Origin: Terriglobia bacterium
Lineage (GTDB): Bacteria > Acidobacteriota > Terriglobia > Bryobacterales > Bryobacteraceae
DNA: 64,000 bases
NCBI GenBank assembly: GCA_020073145.1
Contig: JAIQFS010000026.1
Coordinates: forward strand, 1 to 64,000
Direction of reading: 5' to 3'
Shown here one piece after another: positions 3,790 to 60,119 of this stretch (positions are counted from its first letter, which is position 1; each line of letters starts with the position of its first letter). A model generated the notes under the pieces. The model was not told where the DNA came from. It was given only the letters and a program-made list of their open reading frames with translations, and did not search any database. The position numbers and the translations under genes are program-made.

Positions 3790-4674
3790 ATGTTCGCAAT
3801 CATCGGCATTGTGGTGGTGTTCGGCGCGGTGGTCGGCGGGTACCTGATGGAAAAGGGACACCTGGGGGTACTGCTGCAGCCGGCCGAACTGTTGATCATC
3901 GCAGGAGCGGCCGCAGGCACGGTGCTGATTGCCAATCCACTGCACATCCTCAAAGAGATTCTGAAGGGAATTATTGGAGCTTTCGGAACCTCGCGGTTCA
4001 CGCAGGCGCGGTATCTGGAATCGCTCAAGATGCTGTACGAATTGTTCGATCAGGCGCGGCGCGGGGGGCTCGCGTCGCTGGAGGCGGAGGTGGACAACCC
4101 CGAAAAAGGGAAGACGTTCACGGCGCATCCGGCCATCCTGAAGGACCACCACGTGTGCGCGTTTATCTGCGACACGTTTCGGACGATGATGGTGGGGGGA
4201 ATGGAACCGTTCGATCTGGATCAGATGCTGGAATCGGATCTGGACGTGCACCACCATGACGCGACGGAGCCGGTGAGCGCGTTGACGACCACGGCCGATT
4301 CTCTGCCGGGCTTGGGAATCGTGGCGGCGGTACTGGGGGTGGTGATTACCATGGGGGCGTTGGGCGGCCCGCCGGAGCAGATCGGCGAGAAGGTGGCAGC
4401 GGCACTGGTGGGAACGTTTCTGGGCATTCTGCTGTGCTACGGGTTAGTGGGGCCGCTGGCGGCGAGCATGGGGAAGGAGGCGGACGCGGAGCGGGCCTAC
4501 CTGCAAGTGCTGCGGGTAGCGATGTCGGCCTTCAACAAAGGGATTCCTCCGATTCTGGCGGTGGAGGTGGGGCGGCGCGCGATCCCGGGACACGTCCGGC
4601 CGAAATTCCAGGAGGTAGAGTCAACCTGCCGCAACCGGGCCCCGCAGGCCCCGCCGGCCGAGGCCGCCGCCTGA
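3790..4674 (+). CDS. motA: Flagellar stator protein MotA
   Basis: A 294-residue inner-membrane protein of the normal length for MotA. The N-terminus (MFAIIGIVVVFGAVVGGYLMEKG) is the first membrane helix. A second follows near residues 33-50 and the last pair near 175-235, including LPGLGIVAAVLGVVITMG, which carries the conserved proline-glycine stretch before helix 3. With MotB it forms the ion channel that drives flagellar rotation. motB begins 18 bp downstream. No other flagellar gene is in the window, so the basal-body genes must be elsewhere. Confidence 0.93.
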   Translation: MFAIIGIVVVFGAVVGGYLMEKGHLGVLLQPAELLIIAGAAAGTVLIANPLHILKEILKGIIGAFGTSRFTQARYLESLKMLYELFDQARRGGLASLEAEVDNPEKGKTFTAHPAILKDHHVCAFICDTFRTMMVGGMEPFDLDQMLESDLDVHHHDATEPVSALTTTADSLPGLGIVAAVLGVVITMGALGGPPEQIGEKVAAALVGTFLGILLCYGLVGPLAASMGKEADAERAYLQVLRVAMSAFNKGIPPILAVEVGRRAIPGHVRPKFQEVESTCRNRAPQAPPAEAAA

Positions 4675-29848: not shown

Positions 29849-31336
29849 CTACCGAGCGACTCGCTCGGATCGCACCTCGGTTCCGGACCTCCGAAACTCA
29901 AAGCGCAAACGCCACTTCCTGGCAGCGTCCCGGCCGTCGGGCACGAATTTCCATCCCCGGGCAGCCTGCACAGCGAGTTGCTCGAAATACCGGCTTCTTC
30001 CGGCGGGGTCGGCCTTGGCTTCCACGACGTTACCCGCGGCATCAACCTGAACCTCAAGCTGGATCTTGACCTTACCCTGAATGGTACTTCTTGCCTTTCC
30101 GGGCACATCGGGCAAGACCTGATGAATGATGGCATCGGAACCGGCGGCACGGGCTGGAGGCGCCGGCCGTGAAATGACAGGCTCGGGAACGACCGATTCG
30201 GAAGTAGGACGGGGTGGCGGCGCAATGCGTGGAACGACGGTGCCGGAAGCGATCGGGGCTGCCGGGCTTTTCGTTTTCGGTTTGGATCCGAATGGCGACG
30301 GACGCCCTCCATCGGTCCTCTTGACGACCTCTACCGGTTTAGCCGGCACAGGCACAGGCTTTGGTCTTGGCTGTGCCTGTTGAGGTCTTGGCAGTGCCTG
30401 TTGAGGAGGAGGGGAAACCGACGGCTCTGTGGCCGGGTTCCGGTGCAAGAGCGTGGAGCCAATCAGCACCGCAGCCAGAACCCCACCGAGACTGACCAAG
30501 GGTACGACGTAGCGGGGCCTGGCCGCGGTCTTGGCCGGCGGGACCGCCACGGGCGCGGGCGCACCGGAAAAGCCTTGCGTCAGACTTGCGGCAATCCAGG
30601 ACACCGTCCAGCGGCGCTGGGGATTCTCTTGCAGGGCGTTGCGTGCGATTTCCAGAAACGGCGCCGGCAGCGTCTCCGGCAGGTCGAGCTTTCTCGCTTC
30701 GCCGCCCGCCCCAACGGGGAGATGTTGCGTCAGAACCTCAACCATCGTCATGGCGAGCATCCACACATCGCCCGACGGCGCGATGATGTCCCGGTCCAAC
30801 TCGGGAGGATCGTAAAGGCTCCGCGTTCGCGAACCGCCGGACGGTTCTCCCATCCGGCAGAGCCGGTCGCTCGAGATCTTGACCTGATCGTCGACGGCCA
30901 TGATGTTGGCCGGCTTCAGGTGTCCATGCACGTATCCCTGGCCGTGAAGGTACGCCAAAGCCTCCAGCGTAGACGCCAGCACCTCGCGTGTTTCCGCGGC
31001 TGTGAGGGAGCGCTGGGGAATGACTTGTGACAGATCCTCCGGAGCATACTCCATGACCACATAAAGTAGACACTGGCCGTCGTGCTGCCACAGTCCCGCC
31101 TGAAAGATTCGGATCAGGCGGGGATGAGACAGTTGCGCCGCGGATTCCACGCGGGACAGCTGCTGCCGGGCCTCATCCGGCTCAACCGGGATCAGCTTGA
31201 CCGCCGCCTGTTGGGGCTCGGGAGCTCCAAATTCCGTGAGGAATACGGCGGCGTCGGCGCTGCCACCCAGATACTGGCGGAGAGGGAACTTGCCGTCGAG
31301 GACCTGGCCTTCCCACTGTTTCCAAGTCTCACTCAT
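29849..31336 (-). CDS. Pseudokinase-TM-TonB C-terminal fusion protein
   Basis: A 495-residue protein with AGAGGAA before the ATG. Residues 15-255 form a Hanks-type kinase fold: ATP lysine K47 (QAAVKLI), VVMEYAPEDLSQVI, helix-F aspartate in SGDVWMLAMTMVEVL. The catalytic loop reads HGHLKPAN, so the HRD aspartate is His139, and the DFG aspartate-phenylalanine-glycine is replaced by SSDRL (155-159). Catalysis is therefore unlikely. One membrane helix spans about 277-297. A Pro-rich stretch (303-398) leads to a TonB C-terminal domain (about 403-485: GKVKIQLEVQVDAAGNVVEA...). It probably links a cytoplasmic signal to outer-membrane receptors or the envelope. Confidence 0.85.
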   Translation of the reverse strand: MSETWKQWEGQVLDGKFPLRQYLGGSADAAVFLTEFGAPEPQQAAVKLIPVEPDEARQQLSRVESAAQLSHPRLIRIFQAGLWQHDGQCLLYVVMEYAPEDLSQVIPQRSLTAAETREVLASTLEALAYLHGQGYVHGHLKPANIMAVDDQVKISSDRLCRMGEPSGGSRTRSLYDPPELDRDIIAPSGDVWMLAMTMVEVLTQHLPVGAGGEARKLDLPETLPAPFLEIARNALQENPQRRWTVSWIAASLTQGFSGAPAPVAVPPAKTAARPRYVVPLVSLGGVLAAVLIGSTLLHRNPATEPSVSPPPQQALPRPQQAQPRPKPVPVPAKPVEVVKRTDGGRPSPFGSKPKTKSPAAPIASGTVVPRIAPPPRPTSESVVPEPVISRPAPPARAAGSDAIIHQVLPDVPGKARSTIQGKVKIQLEVQVDAAGNVVEAKADPAGRSRYFEQLAVQAARGWKFVPDGRDAARKWRLRFEFRRSGTEVRSERVAR

Positions 31337-31398: not shown

Positions 31399-32313
31399 CT
31401 ACTTTTCTCCGGTGGCGAGCATCGTCTCCAGGTAGGGCGGCTCCTGCTCGCGGAATACGATGGCCGCTTCTACGTTACGAAATCCAGAGCCCTTCAGATA
31501 CCGCTCGATCTCCAGCTCCGAAAACCCCAACCATAAGTCCGCGTACATCTCGCGCGCTTCTTCGAAATGGTGGCGGTTGAGATCGAGGATCGCGATGCGC
31601 CCGCCCGGCTTGAGGATGCGCCACGCCTCGGTCACGGCCCGCTCGGGGTGGCGGGCGTGGTGGAGCGCCTGGCTCAAGAAGGCCAGGTCCACCGTCCCGC
31701 TGCGAATCGGCACGTCTTCCAATTCGCCCAGCCGGTATTCCAGGTTGCTCATCCCGTGCTTCTTGGCCAGCCCCGAGCCGAATTCCACCATTTTCTCGGA
31801 GTTGTCGATGGCAATCACTTTCTTGGCGCGCTGCGCCATCAATTGCGCGATGGTGCCTTCTCCGGCGCCAAGGTCCGCAATCACCAGCGGCGGCATCAAC
31901 CTCAACAGTGCCTCGGCGATCCCTTGCCACGACCGTCCCGGCACATACTGCCGGCCGAATTTGCCAGCCAGTTCGTCAAAATAGCGGCGAACCTTGTCCT
32001 GTCTCCGGCGCAGCGCCAGCCGGAGAGCGTCCCGATCCTGCTCGGTTTCCGGCACCTCCCGCGCGGCCTGCCGTAGGAGATCCATCATCTCGGCGGGGGC
32101 CACCAGACGATAGAACGCGTTCTTCCCGGTGCGGCGGTCGTCCACCAACCCAGCCTGTTTGAGCTGCGACAGGTGTGTCGAAATCTGGCTTTGCCCCTTC
32201 CCCAGAATCTCCTGGAGTTCGGCCACAGAAAGCTCTTCCTGCTCCAGTAAGAGCATGAGCCGCAACCGGTTAGGGTCGCCTACCAGGCGCAACGATTTGA
32301 GGATTGACGCCAT
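31399..32313 (-). CDS. ArsR-family regulator fused to a SAM-binding methyltransferase domain (SahR-like)
   Basis: A 304-residue two-domain protein. Residues 1-75 are an ArsR/SmtB winged helix (LVGDPNRLRLMLLLEQEELSV, recognition helix GQSQISTHLSQLKQAGLV), with no metal-binding cysteines. Residues 100-260 are a class I methyltransferase fold with motif I VIADLGAGEGTIAQL (145-153) and an ALHHARHPERA loop. Divergent orientation to ahcY-metK with a palindrome between them suggests it senses S-adenosylhomocysteine or SAM and represses the operon, as the ArsR-methyltransferase fusion SahR is reported to do in Proteobacteria. Effector and targets are inferred. Confidence 0.87.
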   Translation of the reverse strand: MASILKSLRLVGDPNRLRLMLLLEQEELSVAELQEILGKGQSQISTHLSQLKQAGLVDDRRTGKNAFYRLVAPAEMMDLLRQAAREVPETEQDRDALRLALRRRQDKVRRYFDELAGKFGRQYVPGRSWQGIAEALLRLMPPLVIADLGAGEGTIAQLMAQRAKKVIAIDNSEKMVEFGSGLAKKHGMSNLEYRLGELEDVPIRSGTVDLAFLSQALHHARHPERAVTEAWRILKPGGRIAILDLNRHHFEEAREMYADLWLGFSELEIERYLKGSGFRNVEAAIVFREQEPPYLETMLATGEK

Positions 32314-32355: not shown

Positions 32356-32373
32356 GCGAGGAAATTGAAAAGC

Positions 32374-33795
32374 ATGAGTACTGCGACGCTGAACTCGACT
32401 GAGTACAAAGTAGCCGACCTGGCACTCGCCGATTGGGGCCGCAAGGAGATCTCAATTGCCGAGCACGAGATGCCCGGACTGATGTCCATCCGGCGCAAGT
32501 ACGCCAAGTCGAAGCCGCTGGCGGGCGTGCGGATCACCGGCTCACTGCACATGACCATCCAGACCGCGGTGCTGATTGAGACCCTGGTGGATCTGGGCGC
32601 GTCGGTGCGTTGGGCCAGCTGCAACATCTTTTCCACGCAGGACCACGCGGCTTCGGCCATCGCAGCAGCGGGCGTGCCGGTCTTCGCATGGAAGGGCGAG
32701 TCCCTGGAGGAGTACTGGTGGTGCACCTACCAGGCCCTCAGCCACCCCAACGGCAAAGGTCCTCAGCTCATCGTCGATGATGGCGGCGACGCGACGCTGC
32801 TGATCCACAAAGGGTACGAATTAGAGAACGGCAGCAAGTGGGTGGATTCGCCGTCCGAAGCTCACGAAGAGAAGGTCATCAAGGATCTGTTGAAGCAGGT
32901 CTACAAAGAGAACCCCAAGCGCTGGCACGATATTGCCAAGGAATGGCGCGGCGTCTCCGAAGAGACCACGACCGGTGTGCACCGGTTATACAAGATGCAC
33001 GAAGCCGGCTTGCTGCTGGTCCCTTCGATCAACGTGAACGACTCGGTCACGAAATCCAAGTTCGACAATCTGTACGGCTGCCGCGAATCGCTGGCGGACG
33101 GCATCAAGCGCGCGACGGACGTCATGATGGGCGGCAAAGTCGCGGTGATCTGCGGATATGGCGACGTCGGCAAGGGCTCGGCGCACTCGCTACGCGGCAT
33201 GGGCGCGCGCGTGGTGGTCACCGAAATCGACCCCATCAACGCCTTGCAGGCCGCCATGGAAGGCTTTGAAGTCACGACCGTCGAAGACACGCTGGGCCGC
33301 GGCGATATTTACGTCACCTGCACCGGCAACCTGGACATCATCACGGCCGATCACATGGCAAAGATGAAAGACCAGGCCATCGTCTGCAACATCGGCCACT
33401 TCGATAACGAAATCCAGATGGATAAGCTGGCGGCCTCGGGCGCCAAGCGCACCAACATCAAGCCGCAGGTGGATATGTACACGTTCGCCAATGGCAACAG
33501 CATCTTTGTCCTGGCCGAAGGCCGCCTGGTCAACCTGGGTTGCGCCACCGGCCACCCCAGCTTCGTGATGAGCAACAGCTTCTCCAACCAGACGCTGGCC
33601 CAGCTCGACCTGTGGAAGAACAAAGATACCTACAAACCGGGTGTGTACACACTGCCCAAGAAACTCGATGAGGAAGTGGCGCGCCTGCACCTGGAAAAGA
33701 TCGGGGCGAAGCTGACGACGCTGTCCAAAAAGCAGGCCGACTATCTCGGCGTGCCCGTGGAAGGCCCCTACAAACCGGATCACTACCGGTACTAG
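32374..33795 (+). CDS. ahcY: Adenosylhomocysteinase
   Basis: 473 residues from the ATG at 32374, with GAGGAA ten bases upstream; a TTG three codons earlier is less likely. It hydrolyses S-adenosylhomocysteine to homocysteine and adenosine, removing the inhibitor left by SAM methyltransferases. Substrate residues lie in [18 protein letters not shown] and [12 protein letters not shown]. The NAD-binding loop is [18 protein letters not shown], and the C-terminal KPDHYRY is diagnostic. The roughly 40-residue insert (KNPKRW region) fits the longer bacterial form. It forms an operon with metK 40 bp downstream. Confidence 0.97.
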
Positions 33796-33835: not shown

Positions 33836-35005
33836 TTGGCAGACACGCAAAGATACTTATTCACGTCGGAATCCGTCACGGAAGGTCATCCGGACAAGAT
33901 CGCCGACCAGGTTTCAGACGCAGTTCTGGACGCCGCACTTGCCGGCGATCCGATGAGCCGCGTCGCCTGCGAGACGCTGGTGACCACCGGAACGTGCATT
34001 GTGGCCGGCGAAATCACGACCAAGGCCGTCATCGATGTGCCCAAGCTGGCCCGCGCCACCATCAACGAGATCGGCTACAACGACGCCACCTACGGCTACG
34101 ACGGCAACACGTGCGGCGTGTTCAACCTGATCCAGACGCAGTCGCCCGACATCTCCATGGGCGTGGACACCGGCGGCGCCGGCGACCAGGGCCTGATGTT
34201 TGGCTACGCGTGCGATGAAACGGCCGAGCTGATGCCGCTACCGATCGAGATGGCGCACAAGCTGGTGCAACGCCTGTCGGTCGCGCGTCGCGAAGGCATC
34301 CTCAAGTTCCTCCGTCCCGACGGCAAGAGCCAGGTGTCGGTGGAGTACGTGGATAACAAGCCGAAGCGCATTGAAGCGGTGGTGATTTCGACTCAGCATG
34401 CTCCCGAAGTCAGCACCGAAGAGCTGCGCAAGGAGATCAAGAAACACATCATCGACGCCATCGTTCCGCAGAACATGGTGGATTCGCAGACCAAGTACCA
34501 CATCAACCCGACCGGCCGGTTCGTAATCGGCGGTCCCAACGGCGATACCGGTCTGACCGGCCGCAAGATCATCGTCGACACCTACGGCGGCATGGGCCGT
34601 CACGGCGGCGGCGCGTTCTCCGGTAAGGATCCGACCAAGGTCGATCGCTCCGCCTGCTACATGGCGCGCTGGATCGCCAAAAACCTGGTGGCGGCCAAGC
34701 TCGCTTCGCGCTGCGAAGTGCAACTGGCCTACGCCATCGGCGTGGCCGAACCGGTTTCCGTCACGGTGAATACCTTCGGCACCGGAGCCATCGCGGACTC
34801 GCAGTTCACCAGCCTGGTTCGCGAAAACTTCAAGCTGACTCCCAAGGGGATCATCGAGACTCTGAACCTGCGCCGTCCGATCTACCGCAAGACGGCAGCC
34901 TTCGGCCACTTCGGCCGCAATGAACCAACCTTCAGCTGGGAAGCTACCAACAAAGCCGACGCCCTCAAGGAACAGGCCGGCGTGGCTCACGCTTCCGCAA
35001 AGTAA
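33836..35005 (+). CDS. metK: S-adenosylmethionine synthetase
   Basis: A 389-residue enzyme making SAM from methionine and ATP. It starts at a TTG with a strong GGAGGAG upstream. Signatures are [17 protein letters not shown] (metal and ATP binding), [12 protein letters not shown] and the phosphate loop [16 protein letters not shown]. Together with ahcY it completes the SAM-use and SAH-removal steps under one promoter. A perfect hairpin follows the stop. Confidence 0.97.
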
Positions 35006-57904: not shown

Positions 57905-58275
57905 TGCGACACCGGAGCAAAACCCTCACCGGCCAGGAGCTGGAAATCATGAAAATCGTCTGGGAGCACGAGCGGGTAACCGTGCGCGACGTCTACGAAG
58001 CGTTGCTGGAGCATCGCAAGGTGGCCTACACCACGGTGATGACCATGATGAAGATCCTGGAACAAAAGGGCTTTCTCAAGAAATCCCAGGAAGAACGCGC
58101 CCACGTCTACCGGCCCGCGCAAGCCAAGAAGCTGGTGATTGGATCCATGGTCCGCGAATTCGTCAACCGGGTATTCAATGGGTCGGCCGAGCCCTTGTTG
58201 GTGCACCTCGTGGAAGAACACCATCTGTCGCAGAAAGACCTGGAAGAGATCGCCCGCCTGCGGAGGAAGTCATGA
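57904..58275 (+). CDS. BlaI/MecI/CopY-family transcriptional repressor
   Basis: A 123-residue regulator of normal length. The winged helix (about 1-75) is recognised from LTGQELEIMKIVWEHERVTVRDVYEALLEHRKVAYTTVMTMMKIL, and the rest is a dimerisation tail. The usual cleavage site between Asn and Phe that BlaR1-triggered proteolysis hits is not evident by eye. Start: the ATG lies inside the operator palindrome. It overlaps the M56 gene by ATGA, the classic repressor/antirepressor pair. Confidence 0.93.
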   Translation: MRHRSKTLTGQELEIMKIVWEHERVTVRDVYEALLEHRKVAYTTVMTMMKILEQKGFLKKSQEERAHVYRPAQAKKLVIGSMVREFVNRVFNGSAEPLLVHLVEEHHLSQKDLEEIARLRRKS

Positions 58276-60119
58276 ACGCGAACAACGTGCTGGCGTGGAG
58301 CCTGCAAATCGGAGTGCTGGTGGCGGCTGCGGCCGCCACGGCCTGGCTTCTGCAGCTGCGAGTGCCGCGAGCCCGTCTGTTGTACTGGCAGGCGGCGCTG
58401 GGAGCCTGCCTCGCGCTCCCCCTGGTCCGTCCCTGGACCCGAGACGTCATCGGCGGCGATGTTTCCGTGACTACGGTTGGAGTAGCGCGAATCGGCGAAG
58501 CCCCGCACGGCGTTCACATTTCTCTGGAACAGGCGCTGCTCTGGATCCTCGCCGCCGGCATTCTCACTCGCGCCCTCTGGCTGGCCGCGGGTTTTGTGCG
58601 CCTTCACCACTACCGGCGCCGGTCGAATCCGATCGAGACTCGGGACGGCGTACCATTGCTGATTTCGGACGAGATCGCCAGCCCGGTGACGTTTGGCGTG
58701 CTGCGGCCGGTCGTGTTGGTGCCGGCCCAGTTCCCCGCCCTCGATCCACGCGCCCGCGAAGCGATCCTCTGCCACGAACTGCTGCACATCCGCCGTCGGG
58801 ACTGGGTGTTTGCCGTGGCGGAAGAAGTGGTGCGAGCCGTCTTCTGGTTCCATCCGGCCATGTGGTGGTTGCTGGGACAGATCCAGCTCACGCGCGAACA
58901 GACGGTGGATCGGGAAGTGGTCGAACAAACGAACGCTCGGGATGTGTACATCGATTCACTGCTGGCGATGGCGGGCGCGGCGCCGCAGCTCGACCTGGCG
59001 CCGGCGCCGCTTTTTCTCCGCCAGCGGCACCTGAAGCAACGAGTGGTTTCCCTGGTGAAGGAGGTTCGGATGTCGAAGAAACGCTTGCTTCCCTCCATGG
59101 CCGCGGCGCTCAGCGTGCTGGCGGTCGCGTGCTGGCTCGTCACCGCGGCCTTTCCGCTGGCCGCCGCGCCCTCCGCAGATGCGCCCGGCGTGACCGTGGA
59201 CCTGAACGGCGCTGCCCTGCTGCACCGCGCCGCCGTGGATTACCCGAACGCGGCCCGCTCGGAAGGCGTGCAGGGCTCGGTGGTGGTGCAAGTGAGGATC
59301 GACCGCAACGGCACCGTCTCCGACGCGCAAGTGCTCAGCGGGCCGGAGGAACTGCGCAAGGCCGTCCTGGCATCGGTGCTGGACTGGCATTTCGCGCACA
59401 GCATGGCGGGGACGACTTCCCAGGCCACCGTTACGTTCAACCTAGGGATTGGAGAGGTTCGGGCCGTAGTGGGACCCAGCGGGATTACTCCCGCGCCCCT
59501 CCCCCGGCCGGCGGCCCTGGAACCGCTGCCGCCGCCTGCTCCACAACGAACCATCAACAGCCTGACAATTACGGGCTTGTCCGACGCGGCTCGCGCCGAC
59601 CTTCTCTCGCGCCTGCCGATGCATCAAGGAGAAGCACTCTCGCCGGAGACGTTGCGCCAACTGGCCCAGGTGGTGAAGGACTTCGATGAGCACCTGGCGG
59701 TCTCAGCCAGGCCGGTCAACGATGAAGTCGCGGTAGCGATCACGCTGCCTCCGGCGCCTCAGGCGGCCTCGATTGCGGTTGCGACTGCTCCGCCCTCTCC
59801 CGCCTCGCCGCCGCGCATCCGGATCGGCGGCAACGTGCAAGCTGTGAAGCTGATCTCCCAGCCCAAGCCGGCCTATCCTCCGCTTGCCAGAATGGCCCAC
59901 ATCCAGGGGGTGGTGGAACTCCGCGCGATCATCGGGAAGGACGGTTCGGTCCAGGACCTGACGGTGATTAGCGGTCCCCCGCTTTTGGTCCCGGCGGCGG
60001 TGACGGCCGTCCAGCAGTGGGTCTACCAGCCGACGCTTCTGAACGGCGACCCGGTGGAAGTGGACACGCAGGTGGACGTCAACTTCACGCTCCGGAAGCC
60101 GGGTCTCAAGCTGCCGTAA
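58272..60119 (+). CDS. BlaR1-like M56 antirepressor with TonB_C, POTRA-like and TonB_C modules
   Basis: A 615-residue membrane protein. Residues 1-270 form the M56 domain with about three helices and the zinc motif HELLH (H168, E169, H172) in CHELLHIRRRDW; FWFHPAMWWL is also typical. A further helix spans about 272-292. Instead of a penicillin-binding sensor the outer part has a TonB C-terminal-like domain (about 318-392: GVQGSVVVQVRIDRNGTVSDA), a POTRA-like segment (424-492: RTINSLTITGLSDAARADLLSRL), and a second TonB C-terminal domain (520-607: HIQGVVELRAIIGKDGSVQDL). It probably senses an envelope signal and cleaves the upstream repressor. Confidence 0.87.
   Translation: MNANNVLAWSLQIGVLVAAAAATAWLLQLRVPRARLLYWQAALGACLALPLVRPWTRDVIGGDVSVTTVGVARIGEAPHGVHISLEQALLWILAAGILTRALWLAAGFVRLHHYRRRSNPIETRDGVPLLISDEIASPVTFGVLRPVVLVPAQFPALDPRAREAILCHELLHIRRRDWVFAVAEEVVRAVFWFHPAMWWLLGQIQLTREQTVDREVVEQTNARDVYIDSLLAMAGAAPQLDLAPAPLFLRQRHLKQRVVSLVKEVRMSKKRLLPSMAAALSVLAVACWLVTAAFPLAAAPSADAPGVTVDLNGAALLHRAAVDYPNAARSEGVQGSVVVQVRIDRNGTVSDAQVLSGPEELRKAVLASVLDWHFAHSMAGTTSQATVTFNLGIGEVRAVVGPSGITPAPLPRPAALEPLPPPAPQRTINSLTITGLSDAARADLLSRLPMHQGEALSPETLRQLAQVVKDFDEHLAVSARPVNDEVAVAITLPPAPQAASIAVATAPPSPASPPRIRIGGNVQAVKLISQPKPAYPPLARMAHIQGVVELRAIIGKDGSVQDLTVISGPPLLVPAAVTAVQQWVYQPTLLNGDPVEVDTQVDVNFTLRKPGLKLP

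Follow-up and report, generated by a model that had tools for sequence, protein, structure and literature searches.

A Terriglobia pseudokinase joined through one membrane helix to a TonB-like domain, with sisters that carry a SPOR-like module

Membrane pseudokinases and wall-linked proteins described to date

The PASTA kinases (PknB/PrkC-type) are active enzymes in which a kinase domain, a transmembrane (TM) helix and an outer wall-binding part follow one another. The protein described here, encoded in a 64,000-nucleotide stretch of a Terriglobia bacterium genome (the window), has the same domain order, but its catalytic residues are lost and its C-terminal module is a different one. In canonical TonB the cytoplasmic tail is short, and the protein acts together with ExbBD. 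The succession of TM helix, Pro-rich spacer and TonB fold is common to both, whereas here a pseudokinase of about 270 residues precedes the TM helix. Mycobacterial MviN, another protein to be compared, includes a multi-helix flippase part.

According to a review of bacterial pseudokinases (PMC12599244), roles are known for few of them. One of them is MviN (ActPs3 family), described there as a membrane protein whose cytoplasmic pseudokinase, with degraded catalytic motifs, is a docking module in wall synthesis, which PknB phosphorylates and to which FhaA is recruited. It shares with our protein a degraded cytoplasmic pseudokinase in a membrane protein; our protein, however, has a single TM helix, and the C-terminal module of its family is TonB or SPOR. 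The same text presents EssB/YukC of type VII secretion as a one-TM membrane protein with a pseudokinase in a structural role. This is also a one-TM pseudokinase, but it belongs to a Firmicutes secretion machine, and TonB and SPOR go unmentioned in that account. The families ActPs1-3, GLW, CP1, DYD and DLHK were compared through the review's text alone, in which a search for TonB, SPOR, Acidobact and Terriglob found no mention. In the open-access literature, judged from listings, we found no description of a pseudokinase with a TonB or SPOR domain.

Other envelope proteins reach the bactofilin cytoskeleton from the membrane. Csd5, involved in Helicobacter cell shape, is a transmembrane protein that binds peptidoglycan through its periplasmic domain and bactofilin through its cytoplasmic part (PMC9507126). 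That account gives the periplasmic domain as SH3 and does not mention a kinase fold, whereas in our family a pseudokinase is combined with TonB or SPOR. In the peptidase LmdC, it is the N-terminal cytoplasmic portion that binds the bactofilin BacA (PMC10945521). SPOR domains recognize peptidoglycan strands lacking stem peptides (PMC6895207), and a LysM-like fold has been described for ExbD and not for TonB (PMC9389320).

Domain anatomy and lost catalytic residues

The gene and its parts are listed below, each with the evidence for it.

29849..31336, minus strand: whole open reading frame (ORF), 495 aa, pseudokinase, TM helix, Pro-rich spacer and TonB-like C-terminal domain (ORF call, Pfam, NCBIfam)
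30569..31309, minus strand: kinase-fold domain, aa 10-256 (Pfam Pkinase, 4.6e-19; PDB kinases by sequence and by fold, the latter with weak models)
31196..31198, minus strand: K47, the beta-3 lysine (33-member alignment)
30920..30928, minus strand: H137-G138-H139 at the HRD place (PknB alignment and 33-member alignment)
30863..30874, minus strand: S155-S156-D157-R158 at the xDFG place (PknB alignment and 33-member alignment)
30452..30508, minus strand: single TM helix, aa 277-295 (hydropathy)
30131..30439, minus strand: Pro-rich spacer, aa 300-402 (sequence; mean identity among TonB-type members 24%)
29882..30130, minus strand: TonB C-terminal-like domain, aa 403-485 (Pfam, NCBIfam, family profile, part of the structure model)

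The annotated start (MSETWKQWEG) is supported by two relatives, a Terriglobia MAG and an Acidobacteriaceae MAG (L001 and L002), which differ from it by at most one residue in the first ten. Profiles and hydropathy bear out the anatomy proposed in the initial annotation, in which a pseudokinase is followed by one TM helix, then by a Pro-rich spacer and finally by a TonB C-terminal domain. The spacer length given there, 95 residues, does not hold, as the distance from the TM helix to the TonB domain is about 105 residues. One hydrophobic segment above threshold is found in 30 of the 33 family members studied (23 of alignment A1 and 10 more), none in L018, and two in L020 and L048. Basic residues are commoner on the kinase side of the TM helix in 22 members, equal in seven and fewer in four. 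This bias agrees with a cytoplasmic kinase domain, without proving it. Among the TonB-type members, mean pairwise identity is 44% in the kinase part and 45% in the TonB domain, and 25% and 24% in the TM helix and the spacer.

The kinase assignment comes from a Pfam Pkinase (PF00069) match at aa 42-246 (E 4.6e-19), and the same profile matches 23/23 members of alignment A1. By sequence, the best solved kinases are GCN2 first, with PknB near the top; by fold, PknB comes first, from weak models (the kinase part modelled alone has a mean pLDDT of 57.8 and a pTM of 0.39, and for both models made, the 50 best Foldseek matches have TM-scores of just 0.16-0.37).

The alignment to PknB is ungapped across both catalytic motifs and places H137-G138-H139 over HRD, and S156, D157 and R158 over the D, F and G of DFG. 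The claims that K47 is retained and that HGH replaces HRD at 137-139 are upheld, K47 being found at its noted place. The loss of the DFG Asp also stands, although the triplet SSD named for it begins one residue early, the PknB-aligned triplet being S156-D157-R158. Where the catalytic Asp would stand, the 33 members have His in 14, Arg in 10, Gly in four, Ala in four and Glu in one, while the DFG Asp place holds Ser in 23, Thr in three and seven single others, and never Asp. Relatives with intact HRD or DFG motifs, which the initial annotation took as the sign of an error, do not occur in this set. Since neither Asp is present in any of the 33, sequencing error or chance is excluded, and the alignments support a Hanks-type pseudokinase in which loss of catalytic residues is a family trait.

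Other kinase positions fared differently. The beta-3 Lys place is Lys in 20 members, Arg in 11, Asp in one and Val in one. In this alignment the alpha-C Glu is absent from all 33 members, its place being Arg in 21 of them (R62 here), and the Gly-loop is eroded in many. The alpha-F Asp (D190) is retained in 33/33, and residue 144 is Asn in 23. The place of the DFG Phe (D157 here) is acidic in 32 of the 33 despite the loss of the DFG Asp.

Two C-terminal module types and a divergent TonB branch

The initial annotation named a lack of TonB fold at 403-485 as grounds for rejecting its reading. Pfam TonB_C (PF03544) matches this region at E 8.6e-4 and 20.2 bits, below its cut-off of 24.6, and NCBIfam TIGR01352 (tonB_Cterm) at 28.6 bits, above its cut-off of 27.1. 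A profile built from 15 TonB-type tails of the family matches the solved TonB structures 2gsk (2e-6) and 1u07 (2.3e-6). A whole-protein structure model, built from three sequences only, has a TonB-like order of strands and helices at aa 403-492; this block has a pLDDT of 63-83 up to residue 490, values elsewhere being low (mean 47.3, pTM 0.30). TonB homology stands on the solved-structure matches, and on the profile evidence we regard the C-terminal domain as a true TonB homologue.

Searched against 101 genomes (that of the window and relatives), a profile of the 15 TonB-type rows gave 27 matches, 13 of them at 6.6e-32 or better and 14 at 2.5e-17 or worse. The 13 first-tier matches are family genes and themselves rows of the profile, and held-out scoring was added to break this circularity. 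With a model from five members, scores were 87.5-130.2 bits for 13 held-out members, 38.6-54.8 bits for the 14 second-tier domains, which come from related genomes, and 10.1-27.1 bits for 12 ordinary TonB domains encoded in the own genome. A kinase match is absent from all 14 second-tier frames, whereas two family controls were positive. The score gap, together with the second-tier frames that lack a kinase, leads us to regard the TonB module as a distinct, divergent branch, found in the 101 genomes only together with the pseudokinase. Moreover, a Tyr (P-x-YP/YS/YT) present in 10 of 12 other TonB domains shown is replaced by Val or Ile in 15 of 15 members of the branch.

The own genome has 22 TonB_C matches, of which only the window gene overlaps a kinase-like match by coordinates; a protein search finds a second kinase-TonB fusion, a paralogue on contig C11. 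The genome's best TonB_C match (L028, G000:C7:52367-52594) is interrupted within the domain by a stop codon. Within the window, a TonB domain also occurs outside the usual TonB, in an M56/BlaR1-type peptidase (58272-60119, plus strand) that holds two TonB_C stretches in one protein.

A different module takes the same place in sister proteins. Typed with two HMMs of five members each, the 33 members fall into 18 TonB-like and 15 SPOR-like, without overlap. The SPOR label is partly by likeness: Pfam SPOR is called in 6/8 SPOR-type members of A1; L010 and L015 are narrowly above the cut-off, and L016 is without a hit. The tree of the family requires three module changes. Repeated module exchange is nevertheless not established, as a single SPOR clade is compatible with the tree data (AU p 0.233), as is a grouping of L010 with L015. 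Mutual exclusion of the two types within a genome was also dropped: none of 19 genomes (11 TonB, 8 SPOR) has both, about one being expected by chance, so the count is uninformative.

The family occurs in several families of the class. In the 101 genomes, 19 genomes are matched by the single sequence and 19 by profile; the profile search gives 22 matches, of which 21 lie within the set of 33 and are mostly profile rows. Across 396 genomes of the phylum at least 30 match, with 31 matches, 18 of them outside the typed set; this is a lower bound, as six candidates per genome were scored. Five gene pairs, four of them SPOR-type of one group and one TonB-type, have dN/dS values of 0.15-0.30 over whole genes and 0.09-0.25 over the kinase part, and by these values are under purifying selection.

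The remaining profile match in the 101 genomes (L130/L140, in G044) is a more distant member. By eye, L140 (4339-5832, plus strand) has lost HRD, kept ADF and has one TM helix, and its frame runs off the contig. Its tail, in which Pfam finds nothing, is perhaps another C-terminal module; a by-eye impression of an NTF2/SnoaL-like fold was discarded as unsupported by Pfam.

Gene neighbourhoods and candidate functions

The initial annotation suggested that the pseudokinase could gate energy transduction or transmit envelope state; the latter may hold. The own genome encodes a separate Ton system on contig C59, where tonB, exbB, exbD and exbD form a cluster in one direction. It also has six MotA_ExbB matches, one of them at 4162-4437 in the window, 25 kb from the pseudokinase gene, and 69 matches to receptor-type barrels (PF25183, fragments included). 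Around the 33 family genes, a phmmer search (E 1e-3, ORFs of at least 80 aa) found no homologue of ExbB, ExbD or ExbD2 and did find the control locus L141; the flanks covered were 0.6-7 kb, one side being 0.6-1.6 kb in L063, L081, L142, L068 and L139. In these flanks, none of the 33 genes was seen beside exbB/exbD, an arrangement looked for as a mark of an energy-transducing TonB. Not every tonB is linked to exbB/exbD, so this alone does not decide against such a role.

A regulated energy transducer, in which a nucleotide- or protein-binding pseudokinase gates a TonB arm working with ExbBD on outer-membrane receptors, could account for the TonB homology (with the NCBIfam cut-off passed) and the long Pro-rich spacer, and the genome supplies the exbB-exbD-exbD cluster, the further MotA_ExbB matches and many barrels. 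We nevertheless consider it unlikely, given the loci without ExbB/ExbD homologues, the separate TonB cluster, a TM helix that is poorly conserved (25%, against 44-45% for the two domains), the Val or Ile in place of Tyr in the divergent branch, and sisters with a SPOR-like module in the same place. These comparisons lend no support to a gate on TonB energy transduction, though the protein may still work with ExbBD encoded elsewhere.

Bactofilin (PF04519) adjoins 5/15 SPOR-type and 0/18 TonB-type genes (Fisher p 0.013, for rows that are related and not independent). In four of these loci, all from one clade, the two genes are divergent, perhaps through one event; in L068, bactofilin is encoded upstream in the same direction, overlapping the gene start by a few bases. 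The five genomes hold two bactofilin matches each, so a chance neighbourhood is unlikely. For the TonB-type genes, no conserved operon was seen; in the first 25 of 59 families, no domain recurs more than twice among 35 neighbours, and no neighbour that recurs suggests a link to the wall.

The reading we favour, to which we give slightly less than an even chance, is an inner-membrane, one-TM pseudokinase that acts as scaffold or sensor, much as MviN or Csd5 may be compared with it. The dead kinase domain would be a protein-docking module in the cytoplasm, the Pro-rich rod would extend into the periplasm, and the C-terminal module would grip or read the envelope. In the SPOR-type sisters this module should bind peptidoglycan, with bactofilin as a plausible cytoplasmic partner. 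In the TonB-type branch, the TonB fold may have been taken over to tether the protein to a ligand in the envelope, or to sense one, be it peptidoglycan or a partner in the outer membrane, and not for ExbBD-powered transport. We infer the topology, the ligand and the docking partner of the pseudokinase, and by analogy the TonB-type would do the same job as the SPOR-type.

That the dead kinase is constant while the C-terminal module is one of two kinds suggests docking coupled to an envelope reader. The same reading is favoured by the absence of both catalytic Asp residues in all 33 members with the alpha-F Asp yet kept, by purifying selection, by the alternation of TonB and SPOR, by bactofilin beside five SPOR-type genes, by the divergence of the TonB branch, by the lack of ExbB/ExbD homologues in the flanks covered, and by the genome's separate Ton cluster. 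It is weakened by the single clade behind four of the five bactofilin loci, by the TonB-type genes, which have neither bactofilin nor a recurrent wall-linked neighbour in the families covered, and by the true TonB homology in a genome with dozens of receptor-type barrels. The C-terminal domain of E. coli TonB can bind peptidoglycan. A literature search for peptidoglycan binding by this domain found no paper.

The TonB domain could instead bind TonB boxes or outer-membrane partners without energy while the pseudokinase relays to a cytoplasmic partner, for example an active Ser/Thr kinase. The TonB fold (solved-structure homology and part of the model) and the many barrels are in keeping with this, and 30 further kinase-like stretches in the genome (33 rows minus the gene itself and two of the paralogue) are possible partners. 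A TonB-dependent receptor also adjoins the TonB-type gene L018, in convergent orientation (L075:1050-4901). That genome, however, has 61 receptor-type barrel matches (61 candidates scored), so the neighbour may be there by chance and is not relied on; receptor families do not recur beside TonB-type genes in the first 25 of 59 families, and we think such a sensor tether quite unlikely. A kinase fold re-tooled for another reaction through the displaced acidic D157, one residue after the DFG Asp place, appears more doubtful again: Asp or Glu at that place (32/33), Asn at 144 (23/33) and Lys or Arg at 47 (31/33) speak for it, but the HRD and DFG Asp and the alpha-C Glu are absent from 33/33 in the alignment and the Gly-loop is often eroded. 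That the protein is simply a decaying kinase without function, as its lost motifs might suggest, is highly improbable, being disfavoured by the losses shared among relatives, the low dN/dS in the five pairs and the spread over several families of the class. The receptor beside L018, and the single TonB-type pair behind the selection estimate, make the scaffold slightly less likely, and the sensor tether and decay slightly more so.

The scaffold or sensor reading could be taken further, to an envelope-reading class of pseudokinases in which one dead-kinase docking module is paired with differing readers in the periplasm (a TonB fold, SPOR, or perhaps the tail of L140). Such proteins would connect the state of the envelope with wall growth and the bactofilin cytoskeleton, and the TonB fold would have passed from a role in transport to one in envelope sensing. 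We offer this as speculation that is rather doubtful as a whole. If true, it would mean a TonB fold serving outside transport, and with a dead kinase that stays constant beside a varying C-terminal module, docking can be probed by exchanging domains.

Two further observations concern neighbouring genes. A serine beta-lactamase-like protein (PF00144) occurs in 7/30 scanned SPOR-type neighbours (set of L068, L071-L074, L076, L077, L131 and L133-L139); seven of the genomes in this set are close relatives. In the window, the pseudokinase gene is preceded on its own strand by a gene for an ArsR-type HTH fused to a methyltransferase domain (31399-32313, minus strand), which ends 62 bases upstream; the shared strand and short gap mean that the two could be co-transcribed. 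The fusion gene is divergent from genes for S-adenosylhomocysteine hydrolase (32365-33795, plus strand) and SAM synthetase (33836-35005, plus strand), and its product resembles SahR, a regulator of the SAM cycle.
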